A stretch of 64,000 nt of DNA from Desulfobulbaceae bacterium (lineage in GTDB: Bacteria; Bacteroidota; Ignavibacteria; Kapaibacteriales; UBA2268): NCBI GenBank assembly GCA_018335795.1, contig JAGXRP010000059.1:1-64000 (forward strand), given 5' to 3'. The notes beneath the pieces were generated by a model. The model saw only the letters and a list, made by a program, of their open reading frames with translations, was not told the origin of the DNA and did no database searches. Shown in pieces: positions 1,240 to 52,712 of the stretch. How positions within the stretch are numbered: position 1 is the first letter of the stretch; every line of letters begins with the position of its first letter. A program made the position numbers and the translations under genes.

Positions 1240-1264
1240 CCACACAAAACGCTTAAAAGCAATT

Positions 1265-11039: not shown

Positions 11040-11097
11040 CCAAAAAGCAACATACATACAAGTGTGAAAATACCATGCCAAAAATATTATGTAAATA

Positions 11098-11135: not shown

Positions 11136-11144
11136 ATCTTTATC

Positions 11145-11175
11145 CCGAAGGTTCCAAACCTTCGGAAGGTTTTTT
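11145..11175. repeat. CCGAAGGTT dispersed hairpin, terminator-like
   Basis: Nine-bp arms CCGAAGGTT (11145-11153) and AACCTTCGG (11157-11165) with a 3-nt loop, followed by a partial third arm and a T6 run to 11175. Relatives are at 23205-23225 and 35381-35401, so this is a small dispersed palindrome family. Upstream of nfnA it cannot terminate a plus-strand gene. Confidence 0.6.
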
Positions 11176-11340
11176 GTTCTTAATACCCTTTAATATATTG
11201 TGATACCTTTCTCGCAAAAGATACAAAACGATTAATATTGTGTCATAATCAATTGAATGTGTGCCGTCTTTTTTTATGTCCAAAAAAAGTCGTAATTTAG
11301 TAGTGTTAAATGAATTACATAAACATTGCATAGTAACAAT

Positions 11341-13644: not shown

Positions 13645-13668
13645 ATATAAAAAACAATTATTTTACAA

Positions 13669-13700
13669 AAGCAGTTCATTTAATTGAATTGCTTTTTTTT
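13669..13700 (+). terminator. Terminator after nfnAB
   Basis: Ten-bp stem with one G-T pair (AAGCAGTTCA at 13669-13678 with TGAATTGCTT at 13685-13694) and a T8 run, 24 nt after the nfnB stop. Confidence 0.85.
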
Positions 13701-13836
13701 ATTGATTTTTTCGCGATTTCACTCAGAAAAGCAGTTTCCAAGAACAACTCAACAGCATCCTGAAGGTTTGACTTGGCTTCTTCTACGCTACAACAAATAT
13801 TGTAAAAGCGATTTCTCCCACAGAGGTTCTATGGAA

Positions 13837-14133
13837 TTAATAAACTTCGTCATGAGTGCCGATAGTTTCAAGGAAGATAATCTTGTTTTTATTGTTGCCC
13901 AATTCAGATTCGTAAAATATCTTGAAAATTAATCTATATTCAAAATTTATACTGCATGAATAGGAACTTTCGAGCTGTCCTTTAAGTTTGTGCGTGCGGA
14001 GCGAAGGAGTGAATGGGTCTTCAATCAACAAATGAAGTGTTCTGACGAATGAATCTTTTAAAGCAGGATTGGATTTTAGTAATTTAGCGGCTTTTCGGGT
14101 GAATTGACCGGATTTTATCAGTTCAAAGTTCAT
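13837..14133 (-). CDS. Type II toxin, RelE/YafQ-like mRNA interferase
   Basis: 98 residues, the normal size for RelE/ParE-superfamily toxins. The pattern fits YafQ-type members: an N-terminal helix pair (FTRKAAKLLKSNPALKDSF), a basic patch HKLKGQL, then CSINFEYRLIFKI, where the arginine after the tyrosine is typical of the RNase fold, and a final strand IIFLETIGTHDEVY with a His-Asp pair. Such toxins cleave mRNA on the ribosome. Its start overlaps the stop of the antitoxin gene by 11 bp, the usual translational coupling. The neighbourhood (RHS remnant, broken gene) is typical of accessory DNA. Confidence 0.85.
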   Translation of the reverse strand: MNFELIKSGQFTRKAAKLLKSNPALKDSFVRTLHLLIEDPFTPSLRTHKLKGQLESSYSCSINFEYRLIFKIFYESELGNNKNKIIFLETIGTHDEVY

Positions 14134-14332
14134 TCTCGATATCGCTCATTATTTGGTCAATAGTTTGAATTTTAAGCTTCCCGCTTTTCAACTCTTGATT
14201 CGCTTCTACAATTTCTTGAACCAAGATTTCCCTTCTGTCTTCAATCAATCTTTGTTGCAAAATACGCGTCAACTCGATCCTATCTTCGATTGGAAGGATA
14301 TCAACAGCATCAAGTATTTCAGCAAAACTCAT
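14123..14332 (-). CDS. Antitoxin of the RelE-like pair
   Basis: 69 residues, acidic, mostly helical (ILDAVDILPIEDRIELTRIL near the start), like the small addiction-module antitoxins paired with RelE/ParE toxins. It precedes and overlaps the toxin gene. No DNA-binding fold is obvious in so short a protein, so autoregulation cannot be inferred. Start ATG at 14332 has a GAGG-like site upstream on the minus strand. Confidence 0.8.
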   Translation of the reverse strand: MSFAEILDAVDILPIEDRIELTRILQQRLIEDRREILVQEIVEANQELKSGKLKIQTIDQIMSDIENEL

Positions 14333-14353
14333 ATTAACCTCAATTATTTACTT

Positions 14354-14479
14354 TCAATTTAAACGTTGATAAGCGCTTTTTATTTGAACAGATGAACTGG
14401 GCTTAGGTGGCACGTACTTGCGGACGCCGTGGTCGCCCAGATTGTTTTCCTTGTCTTTCTCTTTGCCGATATAGCTCAT
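14354..14479 (-). pseudogene. Remnant of an RHS-repeat core domain
   Basis: A 41-codon frame starting at ATG 14479 reads MSYIGKEKDKENNLGDHGVR followed by KY, then an unrelated VPPKPSSS-type tail. In RHS/YD-repeat proteins the core ends with a Y-x-G-K-E-x-D...G-x-R-x-Y block, so this is the isolated end of such a core. G+C is locally high compared with the flanking sequence. No RHS repeats remain upstream, so I read it as a fragment, possibly an orphan tail from a displaced toxin cassette. Confidence 0.5.
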
Positions 14480-14483
14480 TCTT

Positions 14484-14983
14484 TCATTCACATTCAAAAT
14501 AACTTTCTAAATTCTTAATATTCTCAAAATACTCCTCTTGGTAAATTGATGGTAATCGCTCTGTAAATAGTTTTAATAGTGGTATTATAGGCTTATATAA
14601 ATATTGATTAAAAACTACAACAAAGCACTCTCCAACAGCTAACGTATCAATCTACCTGATTTTCTGAATACCAATGCTACTAATCTAAAATCATTGCAAT
14701 TATCAATATATACTGGTGTTGTGAATTTATTGAATTCTTCTTCAAATAAACCCAATAAGGAATCAGATGTTATTGTATCTCTTTGAATATATCTCAGTGA
14801 ATTTTTATCGAGAAATAGGTCTAATGACAAATCAGTTTGTGTGTGTATTCTTAAACCAACATAATTAACAGCTATATATTTAATCGAATCACCATTTAGA
14901 GAATTCAAGATCGAATCACCATTTAGAGAATTCAAGATTGATAAAAACAAAAATATAGACAATATCATAATAGTTAGTTTCAT
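14484..14983 (-). pseudogene. Frameshifted gene for a small secreted protein
   Basis: From ATG 14983 (AGGAG 12 nt upstream) a 114-residue frame with a signal peptide (MKLTIMILSIFLFLSILNSLNGD) ends at 14639. Just before that stop the -1 frame is open for another 55 residues to 14484 and reads convincingly as continuation: ...FRKSGR joined to IDTLAVGECFVVVFNQ and a helical LPSIYQEEYFENIKNL end. A single-base loss near 14651 explains it, either a real disruption or a sequencing error. The signal peptide contains a perfect 27-bp duplication. The protein family is not recognised. Confidence 0.5.
14884..14937. repeat. Perfect 27-bp tandem duplication
   Basis: Two identical 27-bp units (14884-14910 and 14911-14937), keeping the frame and duplicating nine residues (ILNSLNGDS twice) at the end of the signal peptide of the adjoining gene. 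Confidence 0.92.
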
Positions 14984-15130
14984 TTCATTTCATTTCTCCT
15001 ATTCCTATCGCCAGACAATAATAGACTCTGTCTGTCTCCGAACCCCCATTTTCAACATTAATATGTATTTTAGTTTTTATCATTGACAAACTTGCATATT
15101 CTTTGCTAATAATGCAAATCAAATATCACA

Positions 15131-15156
15131 AAAAAAAACCGCCACAATGTGACGGT
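15131..15156 (-). terminator. Terminator after the 2-oxoacid oxidoreductase operon
   Basis: On the minus strand: stem of eight bp with one mismatch (15138-15145 with 15149-15156), 3-nt loop, then a T-run (A-run 15131-15137 on plus). Lies 29 nt after the last stop. Confidence 0.7.
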
Positions 15157-15184
15157 ATTAGGAGGTCTTAGAGATTTAGAGAGA

Positions 15185-15724
15185 TTAGTTTGTTACGAAA
15201 CTTGTACCGACGTTGAATGCTTCCATGTTTAGTGGGACTAATTTATGGTAGCGTTCGGGGAGCACTTGCTTGAGTGCTTCGGTGATTGTTTCTTCTTTTA
15301 CTATTTTTGTAGCTCTAACGAATGCACCTAACATCAGCATATTCAATACTTTGATGTTTTTGAGCTTTACTGCTTCTGCGCTACCGGGCACATTGTAAAT
15401 TGTGATGTCGGTACGAGTGGGCGGAGTCAATATATTTGTGCTATCGTAAATTATCATGCCACCGGGTTTGACTCTCGATTCGAATTTATCAACTGATGGT
15501 TGATTGAGTGCAATTACTGAGTCAAATCTCGATATAATTGGCGAACTGATATAATCGTCGGATACAATTGTGATTGCATTTGCTGTGCCGCCGCGCATTT
15601 CGGGTCCGTATGATGGCATCCAGCATACTTCTTTATTTTCTAGCATGCCTGAATAAGCCAAAATCATTCCCATCGAAAGTACGCCTTGCCCGCCGAATCC
15701 TGCGAAAATTGCTTCTTGTGTCAT
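15185..15724 (-). CDS. korC: 2-oxoacid:ferredoxin oxidoreductase, gamma subunit
   Basis: 179 residues, standard for a separate gamma subunit. It opens with EAIFAGFGGQGVLSMGMILA, the hallmark of the family, followed by CWMPSYGPEMRGGTANA and DSVIALNQPSVDKF. With alpha, beta and ferredoxin-like subunits it oxidatively decarboxylates a 2-oxo acid to its CoA ester and reduces ferredoxin. It is the last gene of a four-gene minus-strand operon, 1 bp after the beta gene. Whether the substrate is 2-oxoglutarate or a branched-chain oxo acid cannot be read off; the symbol follows the commonest naming. Confidence 0.88.
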   Translation of the reverse strand: MTQEAIFAGFGGQGVLSMGMILAYSGMLENKEVCWMPSYGPEMRGGTANAITIVSDDYISSPIISRFDSVIALNQPSVDKFESRVKPGGMIIYDSTNILTPPTRTDITIYNVPGSAEAVKLKNIKVLNMLMLGAFVRATKIVKEETITEALKQVLPERYHKLVPLNMEAFNVGTSFVTN

Positions 15725-15725
15725 A

Positions 15726-16550
15726 TTATTTGCCCTCCGGAACTTTTATATCGCCAAGCGGATAAAATGGAATCATTTTTTCTTCGACGAATTGATTTGA
15801 TTGCTTGGGTGTCATTTTCCAGTTGGACGGACAATTAGTCACGATTTCAACTAAGCAAAATCCGAGCCCTTGCTTTTGATATTCCAAAGCTTTTGCTAAT
15901 GATTTTTTGGCTTTGCGTACATTATTCGGAGTATGGACTGAATGACGACTTACGTATGCCACACCCGGCAAATTTGCCAATAAATTGCTAATATAAAGCG
16001 GATGTCCTTGTGTTTTGACATCGCGACCGTATGGTGAAGTTGTTGTCACCATTCCGGGCAATGTAGTAGGAGCCATTTGACCGCTTGTCATTCCATAAAT
16101 ACCGTTATTGATGAAAACGACCAGGATGTTTTCGCCACGATTTGCTGCGTGAACAGTTTCAGCGGTGCCAATTGCTGCCAAATCGCCGTCACCTTGGTAA
16201 GTGAAGACATATTTTTCGGGCATAATGCGTTTGATACCGGTAGCAACAGCACATGCACGTCCGTGGGCTGCTTCTTGCATATCTACATTCATGTAGTGAT
16301 AGGCGAATACGGAGCATCCAACCGGCGCTACACCGATGATTTCTTCTTGAATTCCCATTTCGTCCACAACTTCCATCAGAATTTTATGTGCTGTACTGTG
16401 ACCGCAACCCGGGCAATAGTGCATCGGGATGTCAATCAATGTTTGTGGTTTGACATAAACCACATTTTCTGCAAGACAAATATCTTCGTCAAAATTGATT
16501 GGTTGGTCGGTTAATTCAGCTTCTATATCAACATATGTTCTTTCGCTCAT
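15726..16550 (-). CDS. korB: 2-oxoacid:ferredoxin oxidoreductase, beta (TPP) subunit
   Basis: 274 residues. MHYCPGCGHSTAHKILMEV supplies cluster-binding cysteines; the thiamine diphosphate site is visible as YQGDGDLAAIG followed by the NNGIYGMTSGQ stretch. AHGRACAVATGIKR is typical of beta subunits. Its start overlaps the alpha stop by 4 bp (ATGA), so the two are translationally coupled. It contributes the catalytic TPP centre with the alpha subunit. The ferredoxin partner could be the small subunit encoded first in the operon. Confidence 0.9.
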   Translation of the reverse strand: MSERTYVDIEAELTDQPINFDEDICLAENVVYVKPQTLIDIPMHYCPGCGHSTAHKILMEVVDEMGIQEEIIGVAPVGCSVFAYHYMNVDMQEAAHGRACAVATGIKRIMPEKYVFTYQGDGDLAAIGTAETVHAANRGENILVVFINNGIYGMTSGQMAPTTLPGMVTTTSPYGRDVKTQGHPLYISNLLANLPGVAYVSRHSVHTPNNVRKAKKSLAKALEYQKQGLGFCLVEIVTNCPSNWKMTPKQSNQFVEEKMIPFYPLGDIKVPEGK

Positions 16551-17620
16551 TTTGTTTCTCCTTTGATGTAGATTCTTTCAAAATTTTCGAGAATTTCTTC
16601 GGGTGAGGGAATCATACCGCCCATTCTGCCGTAAAATTCAACTTTTGTGGCGCCATTTACCGATAGGCGAACGTCTTCGACCATTTGCCCGGCGTTCATT
16701 TCCACATCTAAAATTCCTTTTAGTTGTGGAGCAATGTCAGCATAAACTTGTGTCGGGAATGGGAATACAGTAATCGGTCTAATAACACCCACTTTGTAGC
16801 CTTTGGCGCGAGCCATTTCCATTGCTTTGATACAAATCCGAGCAACTAAGCCAAATCCTGTGAAAACGTATTCGGCATCGTCAAGATTGACAGCTTGGTA
16901 ACGGATTTCATTTTTTTCGATTTCTTTGTATTTTGCTTGAAGTCTTAGGTTAATTTCTTCCATTTTTTCGGATTGAATATGCAAGGAAGTAATATAATTT
17001 CTGTCTTTGCCGGGTTTTTTGCCTGTGGTTGCCCAATCGGGGAATTCCGTTTTGCGAGGCATTTGCTCGAACAAAACGACTTTTTCCATCATTTGTCCGA
17101 TAGCGCCGTCAGTTAAAATCATCACAGGATTGCGATATTTTTCGCCGAGTTCAAATCCGAGCTTGACAAAATCGACCATTTCTTGAACGCTTGACGGAGC
17201 TAAAACGATTAATTTATAGTCACCATGTCCGCCACCTTTGACAGATTGAAAATAATCAGCTTGCGAAGGCTGAATAGTTCCAAGTCCGGGACCACCTCTG
17301 ACAACATTCGCCAAGAGGCAAGGCAGTTCGGCACTCGCGATATATGAAAGCCCTTCTTGCATAAGACTAATGCCCGGGCTTGATGAAGTAGTCATAACAC
17401 GTCTGCCGGCGCCTGCAGCACCGTAAATCATATTAATAGCCGCAACTTCGCTCTCGGCTTGCAACACCACCATTCCGGTGCGTTGCGATGCTTCACGAGC
17501 AAGATATTCGAGTACTTCGGATTGCGGAGTGATAGGATAACCGAAATATGCATCACATCCGGCTCTAATCATTGCCTCGGAGAGTGCTTCGTTTCCTTTC
17601 ATAAGCTTTAGATCGCCCAT
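16547..17620 (-). CDS. korA: 2-oxoacid:ferredoxin oxidoreductase, alpha subunit (KorA/VorB type)
   Basis: 357 residues. The N-terminus LMKGNEALSEAMIRAGCDAY plus FGYPITPQSEVLEYLA is the pyrimidine-binding alpha domain, and it most resembles VorB-type subunits named for 3-methyl-2-oxobutanoate oxidation. GGPGLGTIQPSQADYF and TTSSSPGISLMQEG follow, then the C-terminal domain ending KVEFYGRMGGMIPSPEEIL. The short length and separate gamma and delta genes fit the four-subunit class. It starts 15 bp after the ferredoxin gene. Substrate (2-oxoglutarate versus branched-chain oxo acids) is uncertain. Confidence 0.87.
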   Translation of the reverse strand: MGDLKLMKGNEALSEAMIRAGCDAYFGYPITPQSEVLEYLAREASQRTGMVVLQAESEVAAINMIYGAAGAGRRVMTTSSSPGISLMQEGLSYIASAELPCLLANVVRGGPGLGTIQPSQADYFQSVKGGGHGDYKLIVLAPSSVQEMVDFVKLGFELGEKYRNPVMILTDGAIGQMMEKVVLFEQMPRKTEFPDWATTGKKPGKDRNYITSLHIQSEKMEEINLRLQAKYKEIEKNEIRYQAVNLDDAEYVFTGFGLVARICIKAMEMARAKGYKVGVIRPITVFPFPTQVYADIAPQLKGILDVEMNAGQMVEDVRLSVNGATKVEFYGRMGGMIPSPEEILENFERIYIKGETK

Positions 17621-17635
17621 TTCTGTTCCTTTTAG

Positions 17636-17896
17636 TTAATCTTCAATTTCTATTACTTTGACAGGTCTTTTTGCTTTGTCCACCTTACGGTAAACTGTAA
17701 TTACAGCGTCAGGACATACCAATGCACAACTTGCGCAGCCGTTGCATAAGTCGTTGACCTTGATTGCAAATTGGTATCCTTTGGAATTTATCGTGTCGCT
17801 CAACTGAATAGCTTCTTTCGGGCATGCATCGAAGCATAGTTCACAACCCTTGCACCTTTCGATATCAATGATGATTTCGCCCATTACTTTTGCCAT
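17636..17896 (-). CDS. korD: 4Fe-4S ferredoxin (delta subunit of the oxidoreductase)
   Basis: 86 residues with two CxxCxxCxxxCP clusters: CKGCELCFDACP and CNGCASCALVCP. First gene of the operon. Such two-cluster subunits pass electrons from the TPP/cluster centre of the oxidoreductase to soluble ferredoxin. An inserted loop between the two motifs (SDTINSKGYQFAIKVND) is normal for the delta subunit family. A GAGG-type site lies before the ATG on the minus strand. Confidence 0.9.
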   Translation of the reverse strand: MAKVMGEIIIDIERCKGCELCFDACPKEAIQLSDTINSKGYQFAIKVNDLCNGCASCALVCPDAVITVYRKVDKAKRPVKVIEIED

Positions 17897-18238
17897 GTTT
17901 TACCTCGTTCTTTTCTACGATGTTACTAAATGTTAGCTATTATGCTAATCTTATCTCATAAAAAAATGTTTTTTGCCATTTTTATACATTTAAAATTACG
18001 AAAATTTCTTTACATGGCAAAAGAAAATCGTACTTGCATCAAAATAAATGCATTAATAATTAAGGACTTGCGAAGAATGATATTATGCACGACTAAATAT
18101 ATTGTTACCAAAGTCACATAAACGAGCCCAATTTCTTTGTTTTACATTTCTAAAATTAATTTTCAAGAACACTAAAAATAACTTGCATACAATCGAATTA
18201 TTATCTATCTTTGTTTAGTATAACATTTGAAATTGCTT
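17897..18238. other. Divergent intergenic region with a Bacteroidota-type promoter for the kinase
   Basis: AT-rich spacer between divergent kor operon and histidine kinase. A TTG at 18183-18185, 20 nt, then TATCTTTG at 18206-18213 matches the TTG-N20-TAnnTTTG pattern, 25 nt before the kinase ATG. No matching element was found for the kor strand and no gene is seen in the rest. Confidence 0.55.
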
Positions 18239-21145
18239 ATGAAAATCAAGGAAATTGATTCGGAGAGTAAAATAACGCCATTTAACAAGTCATTCCTGAT
18301 AATATTTGTAGCAGGTATTTGCACGCTATTAATTGCTATCGCATATTATTACTACAACTCAACACGTGAGATTGTAGTAAATGAGAAATATAACGACTTG
18401 AAGACATTGTGCAAAATTAAAGCTTCTCGCATCAATCAATGGCTTTTCGAACGTCATTCCGATATAAAGTTTTTCTCGAACAACAACTATCTCACTGACT
18501 TGATAATCGAATATAACAGCAAAGCCCATTCTGATGAGCTTGAGAACCAAATAATTGATATACTCGAGCCTGTATTGCTCAATGATAGATACCATGACAT
18601 TATTATCCTTGATACAAATCGTGAAATTTCATTATCACTCAAAAACGGTTCACGTTTGATGCCTTCTATTCTTAACGCATATATTGATAAAGCAATCGCT
18701 GCCGATAGTATTGTATTGAGCGACTTGTATAAAGATGAAATCCGTGATGTGATTTTTATAGACTTAGTTGCTCCGATTAATGATAGTTCCGGCAATCTCA
18801 GAGCTATTATGTTGTTCAGAATAGACCCCTCAATCAATTTTTATCCTTTGATTGTAAGTTGGCCCGGTCCAAGCCCTTCGGCAGAATCATTTTTGGTAAG
18901 ATTTCAAAATAATGAACTACTTGTGTTAAATGAACTTCGCCATGCAAAAAATACAGCACTTAAACTTACTATACCAATGAGATATTCTGAAAATACTGCC
19001 GTCCAAGCTGTTAAGGGCGCAAGTGGTATTTTAATTGGTGAAGATTATAGAGGTGTGCAGGTACTGAGTCACGCACAAGCAATTAAAAATACTAATTGGT
19101 TTATTATAACCGAAATTGATATGGGCGAAGTCGTAAATGAATTACGGAAGCGCGAATTGGTCATAATTATTTCAGTTGGAGTTATAATATTAATTCTCAT
19201 ACTCGGGTTAACTATTTATTATAAAAACCGTAAAGAGCAGATTTTCCATAAACTTTATGAAAAAGAAAAAGCACTTCGCGAAACAAACGAAATTTTCAGA
19301 ACTACACTATATAGTATTGGCGATGCTGTTATAACCACCGGAGTTGATGGCAAAATTATTAGAATGAACAAAGTCGCCGAACAACTCACCGGTTGGCTCG
19401 AATCTGAAGCTATTGGACAGAATGTAGAAACGGTATTTAAAATAGTAAGTGAACACGATTTAAGTCGAGTGGAAAATCCCGTTAGAGTTGTACTTCAGAA
19501 AGGTAAAATCGTAGGGTTAGCAAATCACACATTACTCATTGCTAAAGACGGCAATCAAATCCCAGTAGTTGATAGTGGTGCTCCAATCAAAAATGATGCA
19601 GGCGAAATTTTCGGAGTAGTGTTAGTATTCCGAGACCAAACTGAAGAGCGTCTGGCGCAAAATCAGATAAACGAATCGCGAGAGTTTTTTGTCCGGTTGT
19701 TCAATTTATCGCCATTACCCACTGCAATTTTGAATGCTGATGAGATGCTCTATCTTAATATTAGCGATAGCTTTACAGATATTATTGGCTATGAGCCGGA
19801 CGATGTTATTTCTAAGAGCTTTTATCATCTTCCAATTTGGATGCAGCCCGAATCAATCATTGAGCAGATGAGTTCGCTATTGACTTTGAAAAAAATCAGA
19901 AAATTCGAAATTGAAGTCATTACAAAAACCGGCGAAGTTAAACAGATGCTGCTTTTCCTTGATTTATTTGAACAAAAAGAAAGGCAATATATTTTCATGA
20001 AATTATTAGATATTACTAACGAACACCAATACGTTCAAACTATTCGTGAAAGTGAAGCCCGATTCAAAACAATGTTCGTTTCCAATCCGCAGCCGATGAT
20101 GGTATATGATGTGGAAACCGAGAGTATTTTGGAAGTAAATGATGCCGCTATTAAGCATTTCGGGTATAGCTACGAAGAATTCATAAATCTTAAACTAAAT
20201 TCAATTAAATCTGAAGACACTGCAAATCTAATTCAAGTGAAATCCTTTTATGGTCCCGGTTGGGAAAAGCTCAAATGCTTAAGAAAAAAATCAGGTGATT
20301 CATTTGTTGCTGATGTTATAACCGATAAAATTGCTTGGCAAGGAATTGATGCGAAAGTATTGTTGATCATTGACATTACAGAAAGAATCAATGTTCAGAA
20401 AACTTTAATTGAAGCTAAAGAAAAAGCAGAGATGAATGATAAGTTAAAATCTGCTTTTCTTGCAAATATGTCGCACGAAATCAGAACTCCTCTTAATGGT
20501 ATTATCGGTTTTTCGGAATTATTGAAACAGATGAATTTTTCCGAAAACGAACAATATGAATTTTTTGAGATAATAAATAGTAGTGGGAAACGATTGTTAG
20601 CATTGGTCAATGATATTATTGATTTGTCCAAAATTCAATCGGGCAACATCAAAGCAAAATTTGCACAATTCAATTTGAACAAGACTATTAATGACTTATA
20701 TGTTTTTTTCAAACCAATAGCAGAAACCAAATCCCTTATATTATCAAAACACATCGGATTACCGGATGATGATTCGCTTATAGTATCAGACGAACAAAGA
20801 GTATATCAGATTCTCGCCAATTTAATCGGAAATGCAATTAAATATACCGATAGAGGTAGTATTGAATTTGGATACAGAATTAACGAAGCAAAAATCATAT
20901 TCTACGTAAAAGATACAGGCATCGGAATACCCGAAGAGGCTCGAGAAAGAGTCTTTGAGCGTTTCATGCAATTAGAACGCCCGGACAAACAAGTGGACGG
21001 AACCGGGCTTGGATTGGCAATTTCGAAGGGTTTGGTGGATATTCTTGGCGGAACGATTAACTTTGAATCCAACAACGACGAAGGTACAACTTTCTTTGTC
21101 GAGATTCCATATTTGAAAACGATGGTAATGGAATTTAAATCGTAG
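18239..21145 (+). CDS. Membrane PAS-domain sensor histidine kinase
   Basis: 968 residues from ATG 18239 (an in-frame TTG at 18227 is less likely). Order: short cytoplasmic tail, TM1 (~16-38, [20 protein letters not shown]), a ~270-residue extracytoplasmic Cache-like sensor, TM2 (~305-328, [19 protein letters not shown]), three PAS domains (~345-460, ~480-600, ~605-720), HisKA with the phospho-acceptor H746 in [20 protein letters not shown], and HATPase_c with [23 protein letters not shown] and [11 protein letters not shown]. No receiver domain or adjacent response regulator; an orphan kinase whose partner is elsewhere. Its stop codon coincides with the left end of a dispersed repeat. Confidence 0.92.
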
Positions 21146-21698: not shown

Positions 21699-23120
21699 AT
21701 GAAAATCGCACATAAAATTCTAATCATCATAATCATTTTGGCGAATTTTTCATTTGTACATAGTGAAACGCCAAATTTGAAATTTATAACTAAATTTAAT
21801 GATGTAAGTTTGCAAAATAAAGTCTCAACTTCACTCAATCTTGGCGATACTATTTTGTTTACATATGAAGACTCTGAATTAGATCTTTCATATTTGAATA
21901 TTTGTTTTGATAATAAATGTATCCAATTTACAAATCTTGAAATGGGCATTCCAAACAAAAAAAATATTAAACTTCATGGTGCCGTTCATGTAAATAAAAA
22001 CAATAATGAGCTATGGTTTATTACTAAAGATGGCTTATTTATTTTCGATGGATCTAAAATTGTAAGAAATGAAAATGTTCTTAATGATTTAGATTCTCCC
22101 AGTAAAGTTTACTACAGACATTCTTTGTATAAACATACTAATGGAGATATTTATATCTCGACACCAATTCTGCATTTAATAAAATATGATGGTATAAAGT
22201 ATGATACAATTGTATCTCCCATAAGTGATGAAGAAATTCACATTAAAGGAAAGAACTTTAACACTAATTTAGTAGCTATTGGTAACAAATTATACTTTCG
22301 AACACTTCAATACGATATAGCATATTTAGATATAGAAACTCTAGAGTATCACTACCCTTTTGTGAAAGATACGATTTTAAAAAAATATTTAACTAATGAA
22401 GAGATATTGCCGCTTGACGAACCATTCTTAAGAGATATTTTCAAACATGAAAATAGGTTATTGATGCATTTTAATAATTTATTTATTAGCAGCTTTTTCT
22501 TTTATAATGGTCAAGAAATTGAAAAGGTTATATTAGATACAAACTTAATTTTCCCAAATGATTCTGCCTATGTTCTCCATTTTATAGAAGTAGATAATAA
22601 AGGTAGAATATGGGCTAAAATTCAAACACAAAAAAGTATTTATCCACCTTATGATTCCAAAACACATTTTTTTATCATTAATAAGAATTTTGATTATTAT
22701 AGGATTAATAATGATGAATTAGGTTTTGAAACTAGTACGAATTTTTCGGGTTTGCATAATTTAAGCAACGGCACAACATATTTAAATATAAACGGCGGAT
22801 TTTTAGTAGATGACCCTCTTGGCGTTTCGGTAACTGAAAGTGTACCTTCTTTCTTTATGAACAAAGTTAGACCAAATCCATTCAAAGACAGAACACAAGT
22901 TGAACTAACAGCTACACGCACTGCAATTGATAATATGAAAGTAGAAATCTTCGATTATCTTGGTAAAAGCATCAAACAAATTGAACCTTTCATTACGTAT
23001 CAACCACTGACCGGTCTTGCAACTCTCGAATTAGAAACCGACGGAATCCGTCCCGGCTACTACTATCTCGTACTAACAGACCATAATGACACTCGTACAA
23101 TGCCGATATTGATTAAGTAA
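21699..23120 (+). CDS. Secreted propeller-like protein with T9SS sorting domain
   Basis: 473 residues. The signal peptide is clear (MKIAHKILIIIIILANFSFV, cleavage after HS near 24), and the ATG follows CAGGAGC. Residues ~90-340 have strand-rich repeats such as NNELWFITKDGLFIFDGSKI and NGDIYISTPILHLIKYDGI that resemble the two-component-regulator-type beta-propeller. The last ~80 residues are a T9SS type A domain (VRPNPFKDRTQVEL to GYYYLVLTDHNDTRTMPILI). As in the gene at 4337, the sorting-domain DNA is visibly richer in G+C than the passenger. Terminator-like hairpin at 23140-23164. Confidence 0.8.
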   Translation: MKIAHKILIIIIILANFSFVHSETPNLKFITKFNDVSLQNKVSTSLNLGDTILFTYEDSELDLSYLNICFDNKCIQFTNLEMGIPNKKNIKLHGAVHVNKNNNELWFITKDGLFIFDGSKIVRNENVLNDLDSPSKVYYRHSLYKHTNGDIYISTPILHLIKYDGIKYDTIVSPISDEEIHIKGKNFNTNLVAIGNKLYFRTLQYDIAYLDIETLEYHYPFVKDTILKKYLTNEEILPLDEPFLRDIFKHENRLLMHFNNLFISSFFFYNGQEIEKVILDTNLIFPNDSAYVLHFIEVDNKGRIWAKIQTQKSIYPPYDSKTHFFIINKNFDYYRINNDELGFETSTNFSGLHNLSNGTTYLNINGGFLVDDPLGVSVTESVPSFFMNKVRPNPFKDRTQVELTATRTAIDNMKVEIFDYLGKSIKQIEPFITYQPLTGLATLELETDGIRPGYYYLVLTDHNDTRTMPILIK

Positions 23121-23139
23121 AATGGATTAAGACAATCCT

Positions 23140-23164
23140 CCCGTCAGATGTAACAACTGACGGG
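23140..23164 (+). terminator. Hairpin after T9SS gene
   Basis: Perfect 8-bp stem CCCGTCAG/CTGACGGG (23140-23147, 23157-23164) 20 nt after the stop. No T-run follows, so termination is uncertain. Confidence 0.5.
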
Positions 23165-23204
23165 ACAATTTGCCCACGACAGAATATATTACAAATCTAA
23201 ACTA

Positions 23205-23225
23205 CGGAAGTTTTGGAAACTTCCG
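23205..23225. repeat. CGGAAGTTT dispersed hairpin
   Basis: Perfect 9-bp arms CGGAAGTTT/AAACTTCCG around TGG, followed by a partial third arm GAAGTTTT. Same architecture (arm, 3-nt loop, arm, partial arm) as 11145-11175. Confidence 0.65.
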
Positions 23226-23289
23226 AAGTTTTATGTGTTAAATCAAAATATAAAAAGGTCAGAACGCTGTTCTGTTCCATCATACACCA

Positions 23290-23697
23290 CTATTGTAGCA
23301 TATTGAATCTTTTCTCAAACTTTTCTTGTATCTTGTATCCTGTACTGAGGTAACTTGCATACCAAGGTGCATCCTGCTTTAGTTTCAGCTTGATTATCCA
23401 AATGCCGAATAGCCAGATCGGACTGTAAAAATCATATAGAATTTTGTTGTCTTCAATCGCAATCTCAAGAACAATGAGCGAGCCTTTGGGTCCTACAATA
23501 TAATAAGTACGGTAATTTTCCCTTTCGATTAATTTGAACCCTATTGTACGATTGCCCCAGTATGTAGAAACATAATCTCGACCTTTCTTGAATTCTGCTT
23601 GTTTAAATCCGTGCGATTCTATCCAAGCATAAATTGATTTCATGTCCGGGCTTATGCTAATTGAACCGTAATCTATTATTTGAGTCTCTGTATTCAT
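23290..23697 (-). CDS. Hypothetical protein
   Basis: 135 residues from ATG 23697 (MNTETQIIDYGSISIS); a second in-frame start at 23727 would add ten residues. Mixed alpha/beta with a hydrophobic segment IWLFGIWIIKLKLK near the C-terminus and a WGNRTIGFKLIERENY stretch. I do not recognise the family. It is monocistronic, opposite to the T9SS gene upstream and followed by no same-strand neighbour. Could be cytosolic; no signal peptide is seen. Confidence 0.6.
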   Translation of the reverse strand: MNTETQIIDYGSISISPDMKSIYAWIESHGFKQAEFKKGRDYVSTYWGNRTIGFKLIERENYRTYYIVGPKGSLIVLEIAIEDNKILYDFYSPIWLFGIWIIKLKLKQDAPWYASYLSTGYKIQEKFEKRFNMLQ

Positions 23698-23859
23698 AAT
23701 TTGTATATACTTAACATATTTAAACATCTCTATATAATTAACGAAAAATTCACAATAATGTTTTTATTGAGGACTATTAAATACCAAGTAGTTGCAATAA
23801 ACAAAAAAAGGCAAGGCATGTAACACATACCTTGCCAATTTTATTTAGAAGCGATTTAC

Positions 23860-24327
23860 TTAATCAATCGAAACTTCGATTTGCTTTGGTTTGACAGGCT
23901 CAATCTTTGCCAAAGTCACAGTCAAAATGCCATCGTCATACTTTGCCGAAATGCTGTCCTTATTTATATTTTCGGGCAAAGTAAATGAGCGAGTGAATTC
24001 ACCGTAAGCCCTTTCGGCTCTGATGTAAGTTCTCTCAGGCTTTTGAACTTCACCGTCAACAACTTCCTCCTGTGCATAAGGGCTTTTCTTCGTACCCTTA
24101 AAATAGATGATTTTGTCATCGCTGATGGCCACCTTCACGTCCTCTTTCTTCACTCCGGGCAATTCCGCTGTAAAGTAAAGATGATTTTCGTCCTCGCTAA
24201 TGTCAATCCTGGGAGCGAAAGGACCGTACTCGATAGAAAATCCCTTTTCGAATTCATCGGCAATATTTGCCATTCTGCGTGATAATTTCTCGAACCCTTT
24301 GAAAGGGTCTAATCTTAAGTATGTCAT
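23860..24327 (-). CDS. Hsp20/alpha-crystallin small heat shock protein (second gene)
   Basis: 155 residues. The alpha-crystallin domain spans ~45-150: FAPRIDISEDENHLYFTAEL, PGVKKEDVKV, the acidic loop and RAYGEFTRSFTLPENI, then YDDGILTVTLAKIEP. It lacks the usual IxI motif in strict form (PKQIEVSID at the end). It is 21 bp downstream of a second hsp20 gene and probably co-transcribed from the promoter at 24885-24960. Such chaperones hold unfolding proteins as oligomers without ATP. Confidence 0.95.
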   Translation of the reverse strand: MTYLRLDPFKGFEKLSRRMANIADEFEKGFSIEYGPFAPRIDISEDENHLYFTAELPGVKKEDVKVAISDDKIIYFKGTKKSPYAQEEVVDGEVQKPERTYIRAERAYGEFTRSFTLPENINKDSISAKYDDGILTVTLAKIEPVKPKQIEVSID

Positions 24328-24348
24328 GGTAATACCTCCTTTGATTGA

Positions 24349-24777
24349 TTAATTAATAATAACTTCATATTGTTTTGGTGTTTCCGGTATTTTTTTCTCG
24401 ATAGTCAATTCCAATACACCTTGGTTGTATGTAGCTTTGATTTTTTCTACATCAGCAGTTTCGGGCAATTGTAAATTGCGTTTGAAAGCTCCGAAAACGC
24501 GTTCGCTACGTAATAGATTTGATTCATCGGAACGTTTCTTTTCGCCTTCGATAGTCATCAAATACTCGTCGTTGACCGATACTTTCACATCGCTTTTAGC
24601 CACACCGGGCAATTCGATATGAACAATAAAATTAGCATCATTCTCGGTAACATCAAGTCTGGGGCTGAAATTGCCTGTTTCGACTGTGATACCTTTTTCA
24701 ATTGAGTCGGCGATACCTTGGAATTGTTTAACAAATTCTTCGATGCCGCGTGCCGGGTTCATTCTGTAATATCCCAT
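24349..24777 (-). CDS. Hsp20/alpha-crystallin small heat shock protein (first gene)
   Basis: 142 residues with the same domain layout as its neighbour: FSPRLDVTENDANFIVHIEL, PGVAKSDVKVSVND, SERVFGAFKRNLQLPET and YNQGVLELTIEKKIP. The two proteins differ throughout, so this is an old duplication and they may form mixed oligomers. AAGGAG lies before the ATG on the minus strand. Upstream are two GACA-N3-TGTC inverted repeats 22 bp apart. Confidence 0.95.
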   Translation of the reverse strand: MGYYRMNPARGIEEFVKQFQGIADSIEKGITVETGNFSPRLDVTENDANFIVHIELPGVAKSDVKVSVNDEYLMTIEGEKKRSDESNLLRSERVFGAFKRNLQLPETADVEKIKATYNQGVLELTIEKKIPETPKQYEVIIN

Positions 24778-25030: not shown

Positions 25031-25103
25031 GCGAAAGTAGCTCAGTTGGTAGAGCGACGGCTTCCCAAGCCGTAGGTCGCGGGTTCGAATCCCGTCTTTC
25101 GCT
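25031..25103 (+). tRNA. tRNA-Gly (anticodon CCC)
   Basis: 73-nt cloverleaf: acceptor GCGAAAG pairs with CTTTCGC, D-arm contains AGCTCAGTTGGTAGAGC, anticodon stem ACGGC/GCCGT with loop TTCCCAA (anticodon 25064-25066), T-arm CGGGTTCGAATCCCG. The CCA end is not encoded. It reads GGG codons. Confidence 0.97.
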
Positions 25104-35225: not shown

Positions 35226-35335
35226 AGAGACCGCAACAGCGTTCTGTCCGAATGACGGTCATTCTGAACTGCAGGAGAAGAATCAAGTTTTCATAAAATA
35301 CATGGATTCCTCACTTCGTTCAGAATGACCGACAC
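35226..35335. repeat. Dispersed palindromic repeat, copy B
   Basis: A 74-bp imperfect palindrome at 35257-35330 with perfect 11-bp ends GGTCATTCTGA/TCAGAATGACC, preceded by TAGAGACCGCAACAGCGTT, which matches the flank of copy A at 21143. It lies right after the rlmI stop. Confidence 0.8.
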
Positions 35336-35368: not shown

Positions 35369-35516
35369 AAAAAAAGCCTTCCGAAGGTTTTAAAGCTTCG
35401 GGAGCTTAAATGTTTTTTATAGATATTCAAGCCCTTCAGGCTTGTAAATAGGGTGCATATGCTTCTTTCCCCGCATTTCATACGGGGTTATTCATATTCT
35501 ATCCCTTCGGGATATA
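35369..35516. repeat. Array of four hairpins
   Basis: Four separate inverted repeats in 130 bp: CCGAAG/CTTCGG (35381-35386, 35396-35401), CAAGCC/GGCTTG (35428-35433, 35439-35444), CCCCG/CGGGG (35469-35473, 35483-35487), ATCCC/GGGAT (35501-35505, 35509-35513). Looks like a non-coding dispersed element; no protein or RNA gene recognised. Confidence 0.65.
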
Positions 35517-35518
35517 AA

Positions 35519-35543
35519 CCCCAAACCCCAAACCCCAAGCCCC
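35519..35543 (-). other. Perfect four-tract G-quadruplex motif on the minus strand
   Basis: CCCC tracts at 35519, 35526, 35533 and 35540, each separated by a 3-nt spacer (AAA, AAA, AAG). It ends 4 nt before the stop codon of the minus-strand IPTL-CTERM gene, thus lies in its 3' region. Confidence 0.75.
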
Positions 35544-35546
35544 AAA

Positions 35547-36179
35547 TTATACCATTTTCCGCATTACATACCAGCCACCAAAGCTTGCGAAAAGAAGTCC
35601 GAGAGCGATTAATCCCCACTCGCCGAGCGTGGGAATTGTTGTGAAGATGCGTTGCTGTCCGTAGAATGTGCCGTCGCTATTCACCATGTAAGCTCGCACA
35701 TAATATTTTGTGCCTAATTGAAGCCCGGTCAGATTTGATACGAATATTAAAGAATTGCCTGATGTTGGTCCGGCACCTTGTTCGGTTTTTCCGGTGTAAA
35801 CTTCAATTGTTGGCATTGATGAAGTGGACCAGACAACACCTTTTTGGGTGACATCGTTGTCATCTTCAGTTAAATAAATGGAGCCACCACTTATTGCCGA
35901 ATTATCTGTGATATTATAAACCGGTTGGGTTGAAATCGTTGCTCCGAATAAATCCTGGGCATTTAGAAATCCTTCCTTATTTTTGTAAGAAGAATTTGAG
36001 CTGGTGCTCGCCGCTGGTTGAGCAGTAGTTCCGAAATTCTTGTACTGAGTATTATCCGATTGCCCGCCACCTGAAGGAAATACATCTGCTCTTTTGGTTT
36101 GGCTGTTTGCAATCAGAGATAACATCAATATTAACAAAAATATTGATATTAGTAAGTTTATTATTCTATTTTGAATCAT
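35547..36179 (-). CDS. IPTL-CTERM sorting-signal surface protein with FN3-like domain
   Basis: 210 residues. Signal peptide or anchor at 5-27 (RIINLLISIFLLILMLSLIA). A Ser/Thr/Gly-rich linker follows, then an Ig/FN3-like domain (VTQKGVVWSTSSMPTIEVYT to GTKYYVRAYMVNSDGTFYG). The end FTTIPTLGEWGLIALGLLFA plus a GWYVMRKMV basic tail is an IPTL-CTERM signal: I-P-T-L, a hydrophobic helix and basic end, usually processed by exosortase-like systems. It is the last gene of a three-gene minus-strand operon, 18 bp after the subtilase gene. No exosortase gene is visible here. Confidence 0.85.
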   Translation of the reverse strand: MIQNRIINLLISIFLLILMLSLIANSQTKRADVFPSGGGQSDNTQYKNFGTTAQPAASTSSNSSYKNKEGFLNAQDLFGATISTQPVYNITDNSAISGGSIYLTEDDNDVTQKGVVWSTSSMPTIEVYTGKTEQGAGPTSGNSLIFVSNLTGLQLGTKYYVRAYMVNSDGTFYGQQRIFTTIPTLGEWGLIALGLLFASFGGWYVMRKMV

Positions 36180-36197
36180 TATATTTCGCCTAAAAAA

Positions 36198-37874
36198 TTA
36201 ATTTACACTTTCAACAGCTTCGAATTTTAACTCCCAGCCATTGCCTGTTATAAAGTCATTTGACAAAAACCAAATCATAACTTGGTTAGTGTTTGATGTA
36301 ATTATTGGAGGCTTATTAGCTCCTGAAAACTGAGCTAATAAGTTTTCCTGTAAACTTTTATCGCCATCATATATATATACAAAATCAACATTGGGTTCGG
36401 TATGCATTGTAGTAAAATCAAGTTTGATTTTCTTATTTTGAGATGCAGTAATAATCCATTTGCAGACAGATTTGTTTGCATAATTATTTTCTCCACTGCC
36501 ATCAGTTATAATTCCTGAATCACTATTTATATAAACAACGTCGTTACAAAATAATTTCGTAGAATCAATTGTTTGCATGAAATATTTGATTTCAGTCGAA
36601 TTCTTCTTACCTTTTATTGCACCTGATTCAATCGTAATTGAATTGCTTTCGATATATAATCCCGTTTTGAATTCATTAGTCTTGCCTTCGTAAAAAACGG
36701 AATCATTTGAGTAAATTTTAAGCTGTGCAGAATTATCAATTTTTATTGGCAAGATATGAATTCCCCGATATTCACCGATTGGATTAATTAATCTGGTTTG
36801 ATTTTTACTGCTTGGTCCAAACAAAACCTTACCTTCGGGTAACTTTTCGTTAAAGTGACTGAACTTATAATCAGGATTTATAATGTACTCAACTGCTTTA
36901 TCCATATCCGGGAAACCGGCACCTAATTTACCGGCATAAGTAAGATTAAACTCATCAATTGGCTTTGCAGTCAAGAAAAGTGCGTCTTTAATCAATTCAG
37001 TATCTGCATCGTAATTGAGCGATTTTAATATTGCAATGCAACCAGAAATGAATGCAGTTGCTGGAGACGTACCATTACTGAAAGTGAAAGCATTATCAGC
37101 AGTGGGATAAGCACCATAAATCGAATCTCCCGGAGCGCAAATATCAACACGCATATCATAGTTTGCTTTTTGTATTTTTCGGTAGTTAATATCTACACCC
37201 GAAACCGCTATGATACCATCATGTTTTGCGGGATAATTTACATTTTCAGTGAAAAAATTACCGGCAGAACTAACAATAATTTGCCCTTTTGATAAAGACT
37301 CATCAATAATTGCTTTTTCATCTTTGCCAAATTCGCCACCACTCCAAGCGCAGCAAATAATATCAGCACCAATCTTAGAGGCATATTCTATTCCTTTGTA
37401 ACCTTCTTCCAAATAAGTACTTTTGGTATGGTCAGATAGAACTTTAACAGGGATTATTCTCAAATATTTCGGTGCATCTTTGCCGTAATATCTCTCGAAG
37501 ACTTTTATTACAATGCTTGCAATGTAAGTTCCGTGCTTAAACTCGCTTTCGCGTCCTTCGATAATACCTACATTATTATCATTATCGGAAACATCCCAAC
37601 CATAAATATCATCTACACAACCGTTTTTATCATCATCACGAAAATTATTCGGAATTTCATTCTCATTTTTGAAAATGTAATTCTTTAAAACTTTGTGCGA
37701 TAATCTAAAACCATCATCTACGATAGCAACCTTTACCATTTTGTTATTCATTGATTTCTTTGCTACAATATTCAGCATATCATATGCTAAATTTTGGTAC
37801 AAAGTATCATTTGCAAAAACGGAGTTAATGCTTGATAATATAATCATGGCAATTACTATTGCTTTGATAATCAT
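36198..37874 (-). CDS. Secreted subtilisin-like (S8) peptidase with C-terminal CUB domain
   Basis: 558 residues. Signal peptide at 1-21 (MIIKAIVIAMIILSSINSVF). The peptidase domain has D53 (VAIVDDGF), H114 (FKHGTYIASI), N206 (SSAGNFF, oxyanion) and S270 (FSNGTSPATAF), a full catalytic set. Residues ~445-555 form a CUB-like domain: CNDVVYINSDSGIITDGSG, CKWIITASQNKKIKLDF and NVDFVYIYDGDKS. No propeptide or T9SS domain. It lies 1 bp downstream of the tail-collar gene and 18 bp upstream of the IPTL-CTERM gene, so the three are surely co-transcribed. A surface-processing role for its partners is an inference. Confidence 0.9.
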   Translation of the reverse strand: MIIKAIVIAMIILSSINSVFANDTLYQNLAYDMLNIVAKKSMNNKMVKVAIVDDGFRLSHKVLKNYIFKNENEIPNNFRDDDKNGCVDDIYGWDVSDNDNNVGIIEGRESEFKHGTYIASIVIKVFERYYGKDAPKYLRIIPVKVLSDHTKSTYLEEGYKGIEYASKIGADIICCAWSGGEFGKDEKAIIDESLSKGQIIVSSAGNFFTENVNYPAKHDGIIAVSGVDINYRKIQKANYDMRVDICAPGDSIYGAYPTADNAFTFSNGTSPATAFISGCIAILKSLNYDADTELIKDALFLTAKPIDEFNLTYAGKLGAGFPDMDKAVEYIINPDYKFSHFNEKLPEGKVLFGPSSKNQTRLINPIGEYRGIHILPIKIDNSAQLKIYSNDSVFYEGKTNEFKTGLYIESNSITIESGAIKGKKNSTEIKYFMQTIDSTKLFCNDVVYINSDSGIITDGSGENNYANKSVCKWIITASQNKKIKLDFTTMHTEPNVDFVYIYDGDKSLQENLLAQFSGANKPPIITSNTNQVMIWFLSNDFITGNGWELKFEAVESVN

Positions 37875-37875
37875 T

Positions 37876-38946
37876 TTATTCGTATATCACTGTATGACTA
37901 TGTGCTGGAAGCTGACCAACAGTTATAGTTATGGTTTCAGTGCCACCGACTTCTCCCCAACTTCTGTTGGTTAAACCGGGTCCTTGCCCTGGTCCAATTG
38001 GAACTCTACCTCTCAAATCAGGTAGCGCAAAAGTTGTTTGTCCATTTCCACCATAAGTTGTTCCAAGTAATGAAAATAGGGCTGTGTTTTGAGCAATAGA
38101 AAGCAGTTGACCTTCACAAAACGCCCAATTCCTTGGAGCGAAGTTAAAGCCATGAATGCTTATTGCGCCAATAAATGGCTCAGTATTGTTCCTTGATGGG
38201 AAAATACCATATAAAGCAATACTATAATAAACAGCTAAATATGGTTGCATATTATTAACGGATTGACCTGAACCAGTGTTTTGAATAACTATATTTCTTG
38301 CAATCCAGTTTGTGCCGTCAAAAGAAAGCAAATCATTTGCAACAGCACCTGATGGGACAGGGATGCCGCTGCCACCACTGGCGGGCGTTTCCCAACTTAA
38401 ATTACCCGTTCCGTCAGTTACTAATACTTGACCATCAGCCCCATCTTCGGATGGGAATGCATATGAATTAGTTGTTCCAACTGTAAGTTCTGTAAACGTT
38501 CCGCTATTTGGAGTAGTAGAGCCAATTGCACTAGGTGAAGCCCATCCATTTGCTGTTAAATTATTTGATAATAACGAAAATGGTACGCTGGTAATACTTG
38601 TTCTTGGGAGAGTAGTAGAATTTACTCCGACTTCCAGATATGGCGTAATACCATTAAAAATGCTTGGTTCAATCGACTCGTCATTGCCTGAACCAGTACC
38701 AAGAATTACTGAGTATAATCCATTTACTATGTCAATGGATTTTGTAGAAGCGGCATTATTGGGGGGCCATATTTTATTGCCACCTGTTTCAGCATCAAAG
38801 ATAGCAAAAGTAAATGCTACAGCCGATTCGTTGATAGGCTTATTGCTATTATCAAGCAGCTTACCCTGATATGTTATAGTAGTTGGCTGCGAAAATGCAA
38901 AGAAATTGCATAATAGAAACAAAACGATGAAGGTGAATTTTTTCAT
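37876..38946 (-). CDS. Secreted tail-fibre-like protein with truncated tail-collar domain
   Basis: 356 residues. Signal peptide at 1-19 (MKKFTFIVLFLLCNFFAFS), then TITYQGKLLDNSNKPINESA and AFTFAIFDAETGGNKIWPP, the N-terminal pattern of long fibre-like surface proteins. From ~265, HGFNFAPRNWAFCEGQLLSI, TALFSLLGTTYGGNGQTTFA and LPDLRGRVPIGPGQGPG match the phage tail collar domain, which normally continues beyond L-P-x-H-S-H; here the protein ends at LPAHSHTVIYE, so the domain lacks its usual tail. First gene of the operon with the subtilase (1-bp gap). A TATATTTG -7-like element is at 38998-39005 on the minus strand. Confidence 0.85.
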   Translation of the reverse strand: MKKFTFIVLFLLCNFFAFSQPTTITYQGKLLDNSNKPINESAVAFTFAIFDAETGGNKIWPPNNAASTKSIDIVNGLYSVILGTGSGNDESIEPSIFNGITPYLEVGVNSTTLPRTSITSVPFSLLSNNLTANGWASPSAIGSTTPNSGTFTELTVGTTNSYAFPSEDGADGQVLVTDGTGNLSWETPASGGSGIPVPSGAVANDLLSFDGTNWIARNIVIQNTGSGQSVNNMQPYLAVYYSIALYGIFPSRNNTEPFIGAISIHGFNFAPRNWAFCEGQLLSIAQNTALFSLLGTTYGGNGQTTFALPDLRGRVPIGPGQGPGLTNRSWGEVGGTETITITVGQLPAHSHTVIYE

Positions 38947-39038
38947 AAAGTATCTCTTAATAATTAATTAAAAATTTGGAACCTAAACATTAATTAACAA
39001 ATATACAAAATAATTTTAGCATTACCTAATTTATTTTG

Positions 39039-39152: not shown

Positions 39153-39190
39153 AAAAAAAAATCATCCGATGACTCGCAGTCATCAGATGA
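39153..39190 (-). terminator. Terminator after the HtrA gene
   Basis: On the minus strand a 12-bp stem with one mismatch (39162-39174 with 39178-39190), 3-nt loop, then T8 (A-run 39153-39160 on plus). Confidence 0.88.
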
Positions 39191-52339: not shown

Positions 52340-52699
52340 GGGGATGTAACGGATTCGACGGGGTGATGGACGTTTGATGTGGCATGTCGTGCTTAGTCGG
52401 TGGCGCACGTAAATTCAACTGACACAGCTATAAATGCTGACAATAACTATGCTCTGGCTGCTTAATTAAAACGTAGCCACATTCTTTTAAGGACTTGCCT
52501 GTTAGTTCTTACGAGGGTGACGCAAACAAACAGGATAGTGTGTGTGCTCTCATTCGGTACCCATGCGAAATAACAGAATGATAGGTTTTCGGAGACCCGT
52601 CCGTTGGTCACCCGAAGAAAGAAAATTAGAAAGCGGAATAAACATGTAGAGGCTCAGATTGAAACTCTTCGGACGCGGGTTCGACTCCCGCCATCTCCA
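52340..52699 (+). ncRNA. ssrA: tmRNA (ssrA)
   Basis: 5' GGGGATG (52340-52346) pairs with CATCTCC (52692-52698) as the acceptor stem; GTAACGGATTCGACGGGG follows the 5' end and GCGGGTTCGACTCCCGC forms the T-arm. The encoded tag reads GCT GAC AAT AAC TAT GCT CTG GCT GCT then TAA (52436-52465): ADNNYALAA. About 360 nt. It rescues stalled ribosomes with SmpB and tags the peptide for proteolysis. The CCA end is only partly encoded (CACAAA). A prophage tail module begins 194 bp beyond it. Confidence 0.96.
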
Positions 52700-52712
52700 C
52701 AAACGAAACCTG

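Follow-up and report, generated by a model that had tools for sequence, protein, structure and literature searches.

What might three apparently exported proteins, encoded together in one tight operon, do, and why does none of them carry the type IX secretion system (T9SS) tail that is abundant in their genome? We asked this of a locus in a 64,000-nucleotide stretch of contig JAGXRP010000059.1 (assembly GCA_018335795.1, Desulfobulbaceae bacterium; GTDB lineage Bacteroidota, Ignavibacteria, Kapaibacteriales, UBA2268), which we call the window. On its minus strand, from 38946 to 35547, lie genes for a fibre-like protein (356 amino acids), then a subtilase with a CUB domain (558 amino acids) and then a protein with an IPTL-CTERM tail (210 amino acids). 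The gaps between them are 1 and 18 nucleotides (nt). A first-pass annotation, made from the sequence alone, had these coordinates and gaps exactly right and proposed an adhesive or contact-dependent structure that is processed by its own protease. By comparison with related loci, the operon joins two separately conserved pairs: the tip of the fibre with the protease, and the base of the fibre with the N-terminal domain of the third protein (the "A domain"). We propose that the cassette encodes a tethered adhesive fibre, with a base docked on a sorted A-domain tether and a gp12-like tip that has its own protease. We put the probability of this proposal at about 0.47. It rests on comparative evidence: gene order, domains, the conservation of both pairs, the presence of an exosortase, and the variety of tips and enzymes in sister cassettes. 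(Below, G and L numbers label genomes and loci; G000 is the window's own genome.)

The fibre tip and the protease

The fibre ends, as first annotated, in a phage tail collar domain (PF07484; E = 1.9e-27, 95.4 bits versus a Pfam gathering score of 24). Its C-terminus lies 5 residues past an invariant HxH motif, which we presume, by analogy, could bind metal. A profile of the tip matches structures of T4 gp12 (1ocy, 1pdi, and 5iv5) and a long tail fibre (8kec), and the cassette also matches PHROG tail families. The window's fibre shares PF07484 with the T4 short tail fibre gp12 and other tail collar proteins, but it has a signal peptide-like start, a protease and a candidate tether as partners, and no phage neighbourhood. 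In T4, tips of the gp12 type bind lipopolysaccharide. (Separately, arrays of collar matches in short adjacent frames occur at G032 C23, about 11000-20300, and G034 C67, about 22800-24500; the fibre base is unmatched there.)

The N-terminal part of the fibre is related to another group of proteins. All 17 of the fibre N-domains ("FN") match the NCBIfam model Bdello_MAT_N (NF053851) at E ≤ 0.001. The window's own FN scores 38.7 bits (E = 8.5e-10), which falls short of the curated cut-off of 60, so we consider the fibre to be MAT-like and not a member of the mosaic adhesive trimer (MAT) family. The MAT fibres of Bdellovibrio bacteriovorus have a constant N-terminal part and exchangeable tips (PMC10769870). 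The same pattern of constant base and varied tips is seen between the window and the sister cassette L047, and in L049, which has a Fib_succ_major tip (both described below). What sets the window's fibre apart from the MAT fibres, besides its score, is the collar tip, the coupled protease, and a partner gene with a sorting tail. (The word "collar" is absent from the main text of PMC10769870.)

The protease has Pfam matches to Peptidase_S8 (E = 5.7e-29) and CUB (E = 6.7e-19), both above the curated cut-offs. In an alignment of 13 rows, His114, Ser270, and the oxyanion residue Asn206 are invariant and Asp53 is nearly so (one row, L080, lacks the part with Asp53). The annotation of a subtilase with a complete catalytic set and a CUB domain is thus well founded. 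The structural model of the protease matches ordinary subtilisin folds in the PDB and, among the matches listed, one CUB-type structure, PCPE-1. Like the S8 proteases subtilisin and thermitase, it has the fold and the catalytic residues, but it differs from them in its C-terminal CUB domain, in an extra beta region of the model (around residues 347-435), and in that no propeptide family was detected ahead of the catalytic Asp.

We then examined which genes accompany the protease. A scan of the genome collection for the subtilase gave 13 loci. (Two of them are not assessable: L080 begins within the protease, and the match of L089, at 26%, is confined to the catalytic part.) A collar fibre lies directly upstream on the same strand in all 11 of the assessable loci (L077-L079 and L081-L088). 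The titles of these records are Bacteroidales (L077-L079, L082), Bacteroidetes (L083), Sunxiuqinia (L084), Cytophagales (L085), Chitinophaga (L086, L088), Flavobacterium (L087), and Ignavibacteriae (L081). When 12 of the fibres were aligned, the last 150 residues or so were common to all, ending a few residues past the invariant HxH, and the N-terminal parts were of three types. Judging from these neighbourhoods, the subtilase tracks the tip. Two of the loci in which we found no A gene, L078 (2454-4985) and L083 (2529-5057), have immediately upstream of their collar fibre and subtilase a gene for a large protein that, judged by eye, is cohesin-like and bears a T9SS tail.

The fibre base and the A domain

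The A domain makes up the first 45 or so residues of the mature third protein. We found it covered by no Pfam family, either in the protein of the window or in ten relatives that we inspected singly. Of 197 sampled genomes of the window's class, 39 have matches to its pattern (60 matches in all), and a broader model has matches in 45 of 395 genomes of the phylum.

We collected 60 stretches around A-domain matches: 40 from the search of the class (41 of its 60 rows) and 20 from the phylum list (including 12 of its 14 rows from outside the class). These stretches hold 62 A frames, and 42 of them have, on the same strand and no more than 300 nt away, a fibre with an FN or FN2 base. Outside the window's class, the same is true of 8 of 12 A frames. 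In the window's own genome, all five A genes lie within 4 kilobases (kb) of an FN fibre on the same strand, although C57 and C68, two of these genes, have similar scores and perhaps represent a single locus. By comparison, only one of the 150 T9SS-tail matches listed for this genome is within 4 kb of an FN fibre, and that one is an A gene. In G217, clusters of three fibres end with a single A gene. Eight A genes of family f19 (L135, L136, L137, L142, L146, L148, L163, and L220) stand alone, with no FN or FN2 fibre in their stretch.

This pair seems to be independent of the subtilase, because only one of the 60 stretches (L133) holds a subtilase relative. Among the loci that do have a collar tip and a subtilase, an A gene is present in 8 of 8 with an FN or FN2 base (the window, L081, L133, L046, L084, L085, L087, and L088) versus 0 of 5 with the base type FN3 (L077, L078, L079, L082, and L083). 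The count of eight includes L085 (E = 0.012) and L087 (E = 0.083), which are under HMMER's inclusion threshold and were counted by comparison with shuffled sequences; otherwise it is 6 of 8. The window and L081 are close relatives, and we left out L086, whose contig starts inside the fibre. By this comparison, the A gene follows the base and not the tip.

How certain are the more distant A domains? The window's A domain aligns to the small T9SS-tailed proteins of L084, L085, L087, and L088 with an hhalign probability of 25%, or 75% with a deeper alignment. With an earlier A model, the number of shuffled sequences (out of 500) that reached the score of the real protein was 0 for L084, 0 for L088, 3 for L085, and 32 for L087. 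After ten A domains were added to the model, all four proteins beat every one of the 988-998 shuffled sequences scored for each of them, L087 barely.

One NCBIfam model, the only one seen to touch the A domain, does resemble some A proteins. (Because of these weak matches, we rejected the view that none does.) CPR_pilus_PamT (NF058579; by its name a CPR-type pilus protein) matches 11 of 37 A proteins at E ≤ 0.01. When the A domains are isolated, 8 of 30 match at E ≤ 0.1 (best E = 4e-4), and the window's A domain is not among them. In 4 of 10 A proteins checked (all 4 that matched), the match covers roughly the first 80 positions of the model. The relatives are far below the cut-off: the best score among those checked is 23.3 bits, versus a curated cut-off of 240. 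The A proteins that match PamT include L134 4023-4562 and L159 2764-4143. A link between the A domain and the pili of Patescibacteria is possible. PamT is not mentioned in the open-access papers among the matches listed.

Finally, we considered relatives of the whole cassette. The first-pass annotation suggested a search for conserved triplets in related genomes. Such triplets exist, but the full triplet was seen in three genomes only (G000, G002, and G217), with a partial one in G020, and it is the two inner pairs that are widely conserved. In G002, a congener, the triplet (L045) adjoins htrA, as it does in the window, and in G217, from another genus, the triplet (L133) is away from htrA. Because the same triplet occurs both next to htrA and elsewhere, it is not a chance arrangement. 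In G020, which belongs to the genus of G217, a contig end holds a fibre, a subtilase (53% identical), and an A-domain protein that lacks the IPTL tail.

Another congener, G001, has two sister cassettes with other tips and other enzymes. First, L047 (G001 C10 13500-21500) lies beside htrA in the opposite direction. Its fibre base is 92% identical to the window's over 130 residues and its IPTL-tailed tether is 79% identical, whereas the tip regions are unrelated (10 of 32 residues in the best local alignment) and its enzyme is a peptidase of the M28 family. Second, L049 combines a base that is 53% identical with a Fib_succ_major tip and a thioredoxin-like protein.

Between G217 and the window, the subtilase is 90% identical (over 558 residues), the fibre base 88%, and the tip 71%. 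In the tether, the A part is 79% identical and the remainder 43%. These values can be compared to the reference genes for RimO (73%) and HtrA (64%). Because the protease, the base, and the A domain exceed both references, the comparison suggests that these parts were laterally transferred, with a local tail. We dropped the idea that the cassette was transferred between genera as one unit, given the 43% identity of the tail half of the tether and the unremarkable 71% of the tip.

The sorting tail and the layout of the locus

The third protein has the C-terminal sorting signal that was first annotated: its IPTL-CTERM tail is above the curated cut-off in Pfam (E = 3.4e-8) and scores 36.1 bits against TIGR04174 (32.1 bits in the protein search; the cut-off is 20.5). 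The other part of that description, an FN3-like protein, has weak support: there is no match to the Pfam domain FN3, and matches to other families are all sub-threshold.

As the first-pass annotation pointed out, this genome uses T9SS (at least 150 matches to TIGR04183), and yet the T9SS tail models TIGR04183 and PF18962 match none of the three proteins. We therefore rejected the idea that the cassette is T9SS cargo. At E ≤ 0.01, 32 of the 37 A proteins have a T9SS tail and 3 have an IPTL tail; the window's member is not among the T9SS-tailed ones. Since the tether's group is mostly T9SS-tailed, the tether here is IPTL-tailed, and the genome has an exosortase, the missing T9SS tail appears to be explained by a swap to an IPTL tail.

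IPTL tails were found in 10 of 40 genomes (including the window's own). An exosortase-family match (E ≤ 0.001) is present in 10 of these 10 versus 2 of the other 30 (Fisher's exact p = 8e-8, ignoring relatedness). (The exosortases of G008, G011, and G020 are under the Pfam cut-off and above that of the NCBIfam exosortase signature.) For the window genome's own exosortase, XrtH is the best of 11 matching models, at 65.7 bits versus a curated cut-off of 86; against the general exosortase signature it scores 49.7 versus a cut-off of 23. It has the Cys, Arg, and His motifs expected of an exosortase. The tail is like those of the known IPTL-CTERM/XrtH system, and the differences are that the exosortase is under the curated XrtH cut-off and that the genome, with its 150 or more T9SS tails, has just 2 IPTL genes.

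The second IPTL protein (G000 C21, L050) is 82% identical to the tail half of the window's tether over 139 residues and has no A domain. Because of this, we regard the A domain and the tail as separate modules. The gene for the second IPTL protein (4892-5380) sits after that of a large surface-like protein (582-4862). A surface-like protein without its own IPTL tail, followed by a small IPTL protein, is the arrangement in L050, and similar ones are in L048, L056, and L057. The pair in L050 is possibly a second split anchor that uses the same exosortase.

The features of the locus are collected in Table 1. The three genes are probably one transcription unit, as first annotated, because of the short gaps, the promoter-like element TATATTTG upstream of the fibre, and a hairpin after htrA; internal promoters are still possible. 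(We call TATATTTG promoter-like from its similarity to the -7 consensus.) Similar motifs are found 58 nt upstream in G002, 60 nt in G001a, and 61 nt in G217a. The hairpin is weak evidence, as the region has 3 terminator-like hairpins versus 2.9 expected from shuffled sequences. The N-termini of all three proteins look secretion-like (judged by eye from the sequence, with no signal-peptide program), and the flanking genes, whose translations were also judged by eye, are of a chromosomal housekeeping type (RimO-, HtrA-, and FeoB-like). Directly downstream of the operon are a 17-nt inverted repeat and a short AAACCCC tandem repeat (35253-35334 and 35516-35546), which are possibly a repetitive element at the edge of the cassette. 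Elsewhere in the window are a tmRNA and one tRNA (52340-52702 and 25031-25103).

Table 1. Positions in the window of the cassette's genes, domains, and putative signals.
Feature	Position	Strand	Remarks
Hairpin, terminator-like, 3' of htrA (between htrA and the cassette)	39162..39190	-	weak alone
Promoter-like -7 element TATATTTG	38998..39005	-	59 nt upstream of fibre start
Fibre gene	37876..38946	-	signal peptide-like N-terminus, MAT-like N-domain, linker, gp12-like collar tip
Signal sequence and FN coding region	38557..38946	-	N-domain about residues 20-125
Phage tail collar domain (PF07484)	37999..38169	-	residues 260-316
Subtilase-CUB gene	36198..37874	-	triad D53, H114, S270
CUB domain of the protease	36222..36548	-	residues 443-551 (Pfam)
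Candidate tether gene	35547..36179	-	A domain, FN3-like part, IPTL-CTERM tail
A domain	35955..36101	-	pattern GGG.SN..Y...GT..Q...GFL; no Pfam model
IPTL-CTERM sorting tail	35559..35636	-	IPTLGEWG, hydrophobic stretch, basic end

A proposed tethered adhesive fibre and its alternatives

How might these parts work together? Our proposal is that the fibre of the cassette is an adhesive trimer, whose base is fixed and whose tip can be exchanged. The MAT-like N-domain of the base would dock on the A domain of the third protein, and that protein would be sorted to the cell surface by its IPTL-CTERM tail via the XrtH-like exosortase, instead of by a T9SS tail as in most of its relatives. The third protein is best seen as a tether, because it has the only surface-sorting tail that we found in the cassette and because its A domain tracks the base. 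The gp12-like collar tip would bind a surface ligand. The subtilase-CUB protein would be secreted along with this type of tip and would act at the bound target, and its CUB domain probably keeps it on the fibre or the ligand. Trimerisation, the docking of the base on the A domain, the location at the surface, and the substrate of the protease are all inferred from sequence. The adhesive part of the original annotation agrees with this proposal.

Several observations weigh against it. First, the initial A-domain search used eight seeds, all taken from fibre cassettes, and this may have biased it towards linked members; moreover, 20 of the 62 A frames (the eight stand-alone genes of f19 and 12 others) have no FN or FN2 fibre within 300 nt. 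Second, base type and lineage are confounded, because the five loci with the base type FN3 are, by their titles, four Bacteroidales and one Bacteroidetes. Third, some of the similarities are marginal: the A domain of L087 scores 11.2 versus 11.0 for the best shuffled sequence, that of L085 is weak, the window's FN is below the curated cut-off for MAT, and the exosortase is below that for XrtH. Fourth, an AlphaFold2 model of a single chain of the fibre (mean predicted local distance difference test score, 42) was too poor for a structure search. Finally, the fibre and the protease lack sorting tails, the proposal does not account for their export, and the likeness of some A domains to PamT could mean that the third protein belongs to something like a pilus and is not a simple tether.

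These last points lead to the alternative that survives best, which we nevertheless consider rather unlikely: the A-domain protein might assist export, might be a subunit of a pilus-like kind, or might be a surface protein that is independent of the fibre and co-regulated with it. In favour of this alternative, some A genes stand alone, the order and distance of A genes relative to fibres are variable, the fibre and the protease have no sorting tails and would need an export route, and 8 of 30 A domains have weak matches to PamT. Against it, a surface-sorting tail is present in 35 of 37 A proteins, the A gene tracks the type of base among loci with the same tip and protease, and one A gene ends clusters of three fibres in G217.

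In another alternative, the subtilase is a maturation or release protease for the tip of the fibre or for the tether, much as the first-pass annotation had it. The strict adjacency of the subtilase to the collar tip, with a gap of 1 nt, would fit such a role. Still, we think that this is unlikely, as L047, a sister cassette whose base and tether are 92% and 79% identical to the window's, has an M28 peptidase, another (L049) has a thioredoxin-like protein, and 59 of the 60 stretches with A genes have no relative of the subtilase. Because L047 has an M28 peptidase and only 1 of the 60 stretches has a relative of the subtilase, the base and the tether do not seem to need this subtilase, and the idea of a structure processed by its own protease is not supported. 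For the same reasons, a subtilase that processes all three proteins in general is improbable. (Maturation of the collar tip alone by the subtilase is compatible with this evidence.) Under our proposal, the substrate of the protease is more likely to be the bound target of the tip than the neighbouring proteins of the cassette. We prefer a bound target because the sister cassettes pair other tips with other enzymes.

It is very improbable that the cassette is a secreted device for lysis or defence, whose fibre aims the protease at competitors. A phage-like tip and an intact protease do travel together, and in T4 tips of the gp12 type bind lipopolysaccharide; but profile searches recognised no known toxin or delivery module in the cassette (PADLOC was not searched), and the enzyme varies between cassettes. 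A prophage or contractile-tail remnant, for which the collar domain and the PHROG tail matches might be cited, is largely refuted by the housekeeping neighbours (by eye), the signal peptide-like starts, the lack of any relative of the protease in a scan of viral contigs, and the lack of any match covering 80% of the protease in phage and plasmid records.

More tentatively than for the cassette itself, we suggest a two-part adhesin that occurs across the phylum. A sorted A-domain protein would be a "socket" that holds exchangeable MAT-like fibres, with its tail swapped between T9SS and exosortase types. Each kind of tip would come with an enzyme matched to it, and new pairs of tip and enzyme could be fitted into the cassettes. 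Among the matches listed in a search of open-access literature, no title or start of an abstract dealt with the A domain, the fibre-A pair, or the collar-subtilase pair.

If the proposal is correct, it bears on how chimeric fibres that have no membrane anchor are held at the cell. According to the MAT paper, the surface element that is bound by the N-domain of MAT fibres awaits identification (PMC10769870). The A domain is a concrete candidate for a docking partner: it is near MAT-like fibres far more often than expected by chance in the one genome tested, 35 of 37 of its proteins have sorting tails, and none was found in the five loci with the base type FN3. It would match the type of surface partner still missing for the MAT fibres of Bdellovibrio. 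The weak likeness to PamT could tie the A domain to pilus-like structures. The exchange of a T9SS tail for an IPTL tail would mean that two unrelated sorting systems do the same job, and the fixed pairing of tip and protease suggests that these fibres are armed with tip-specific enzymes.

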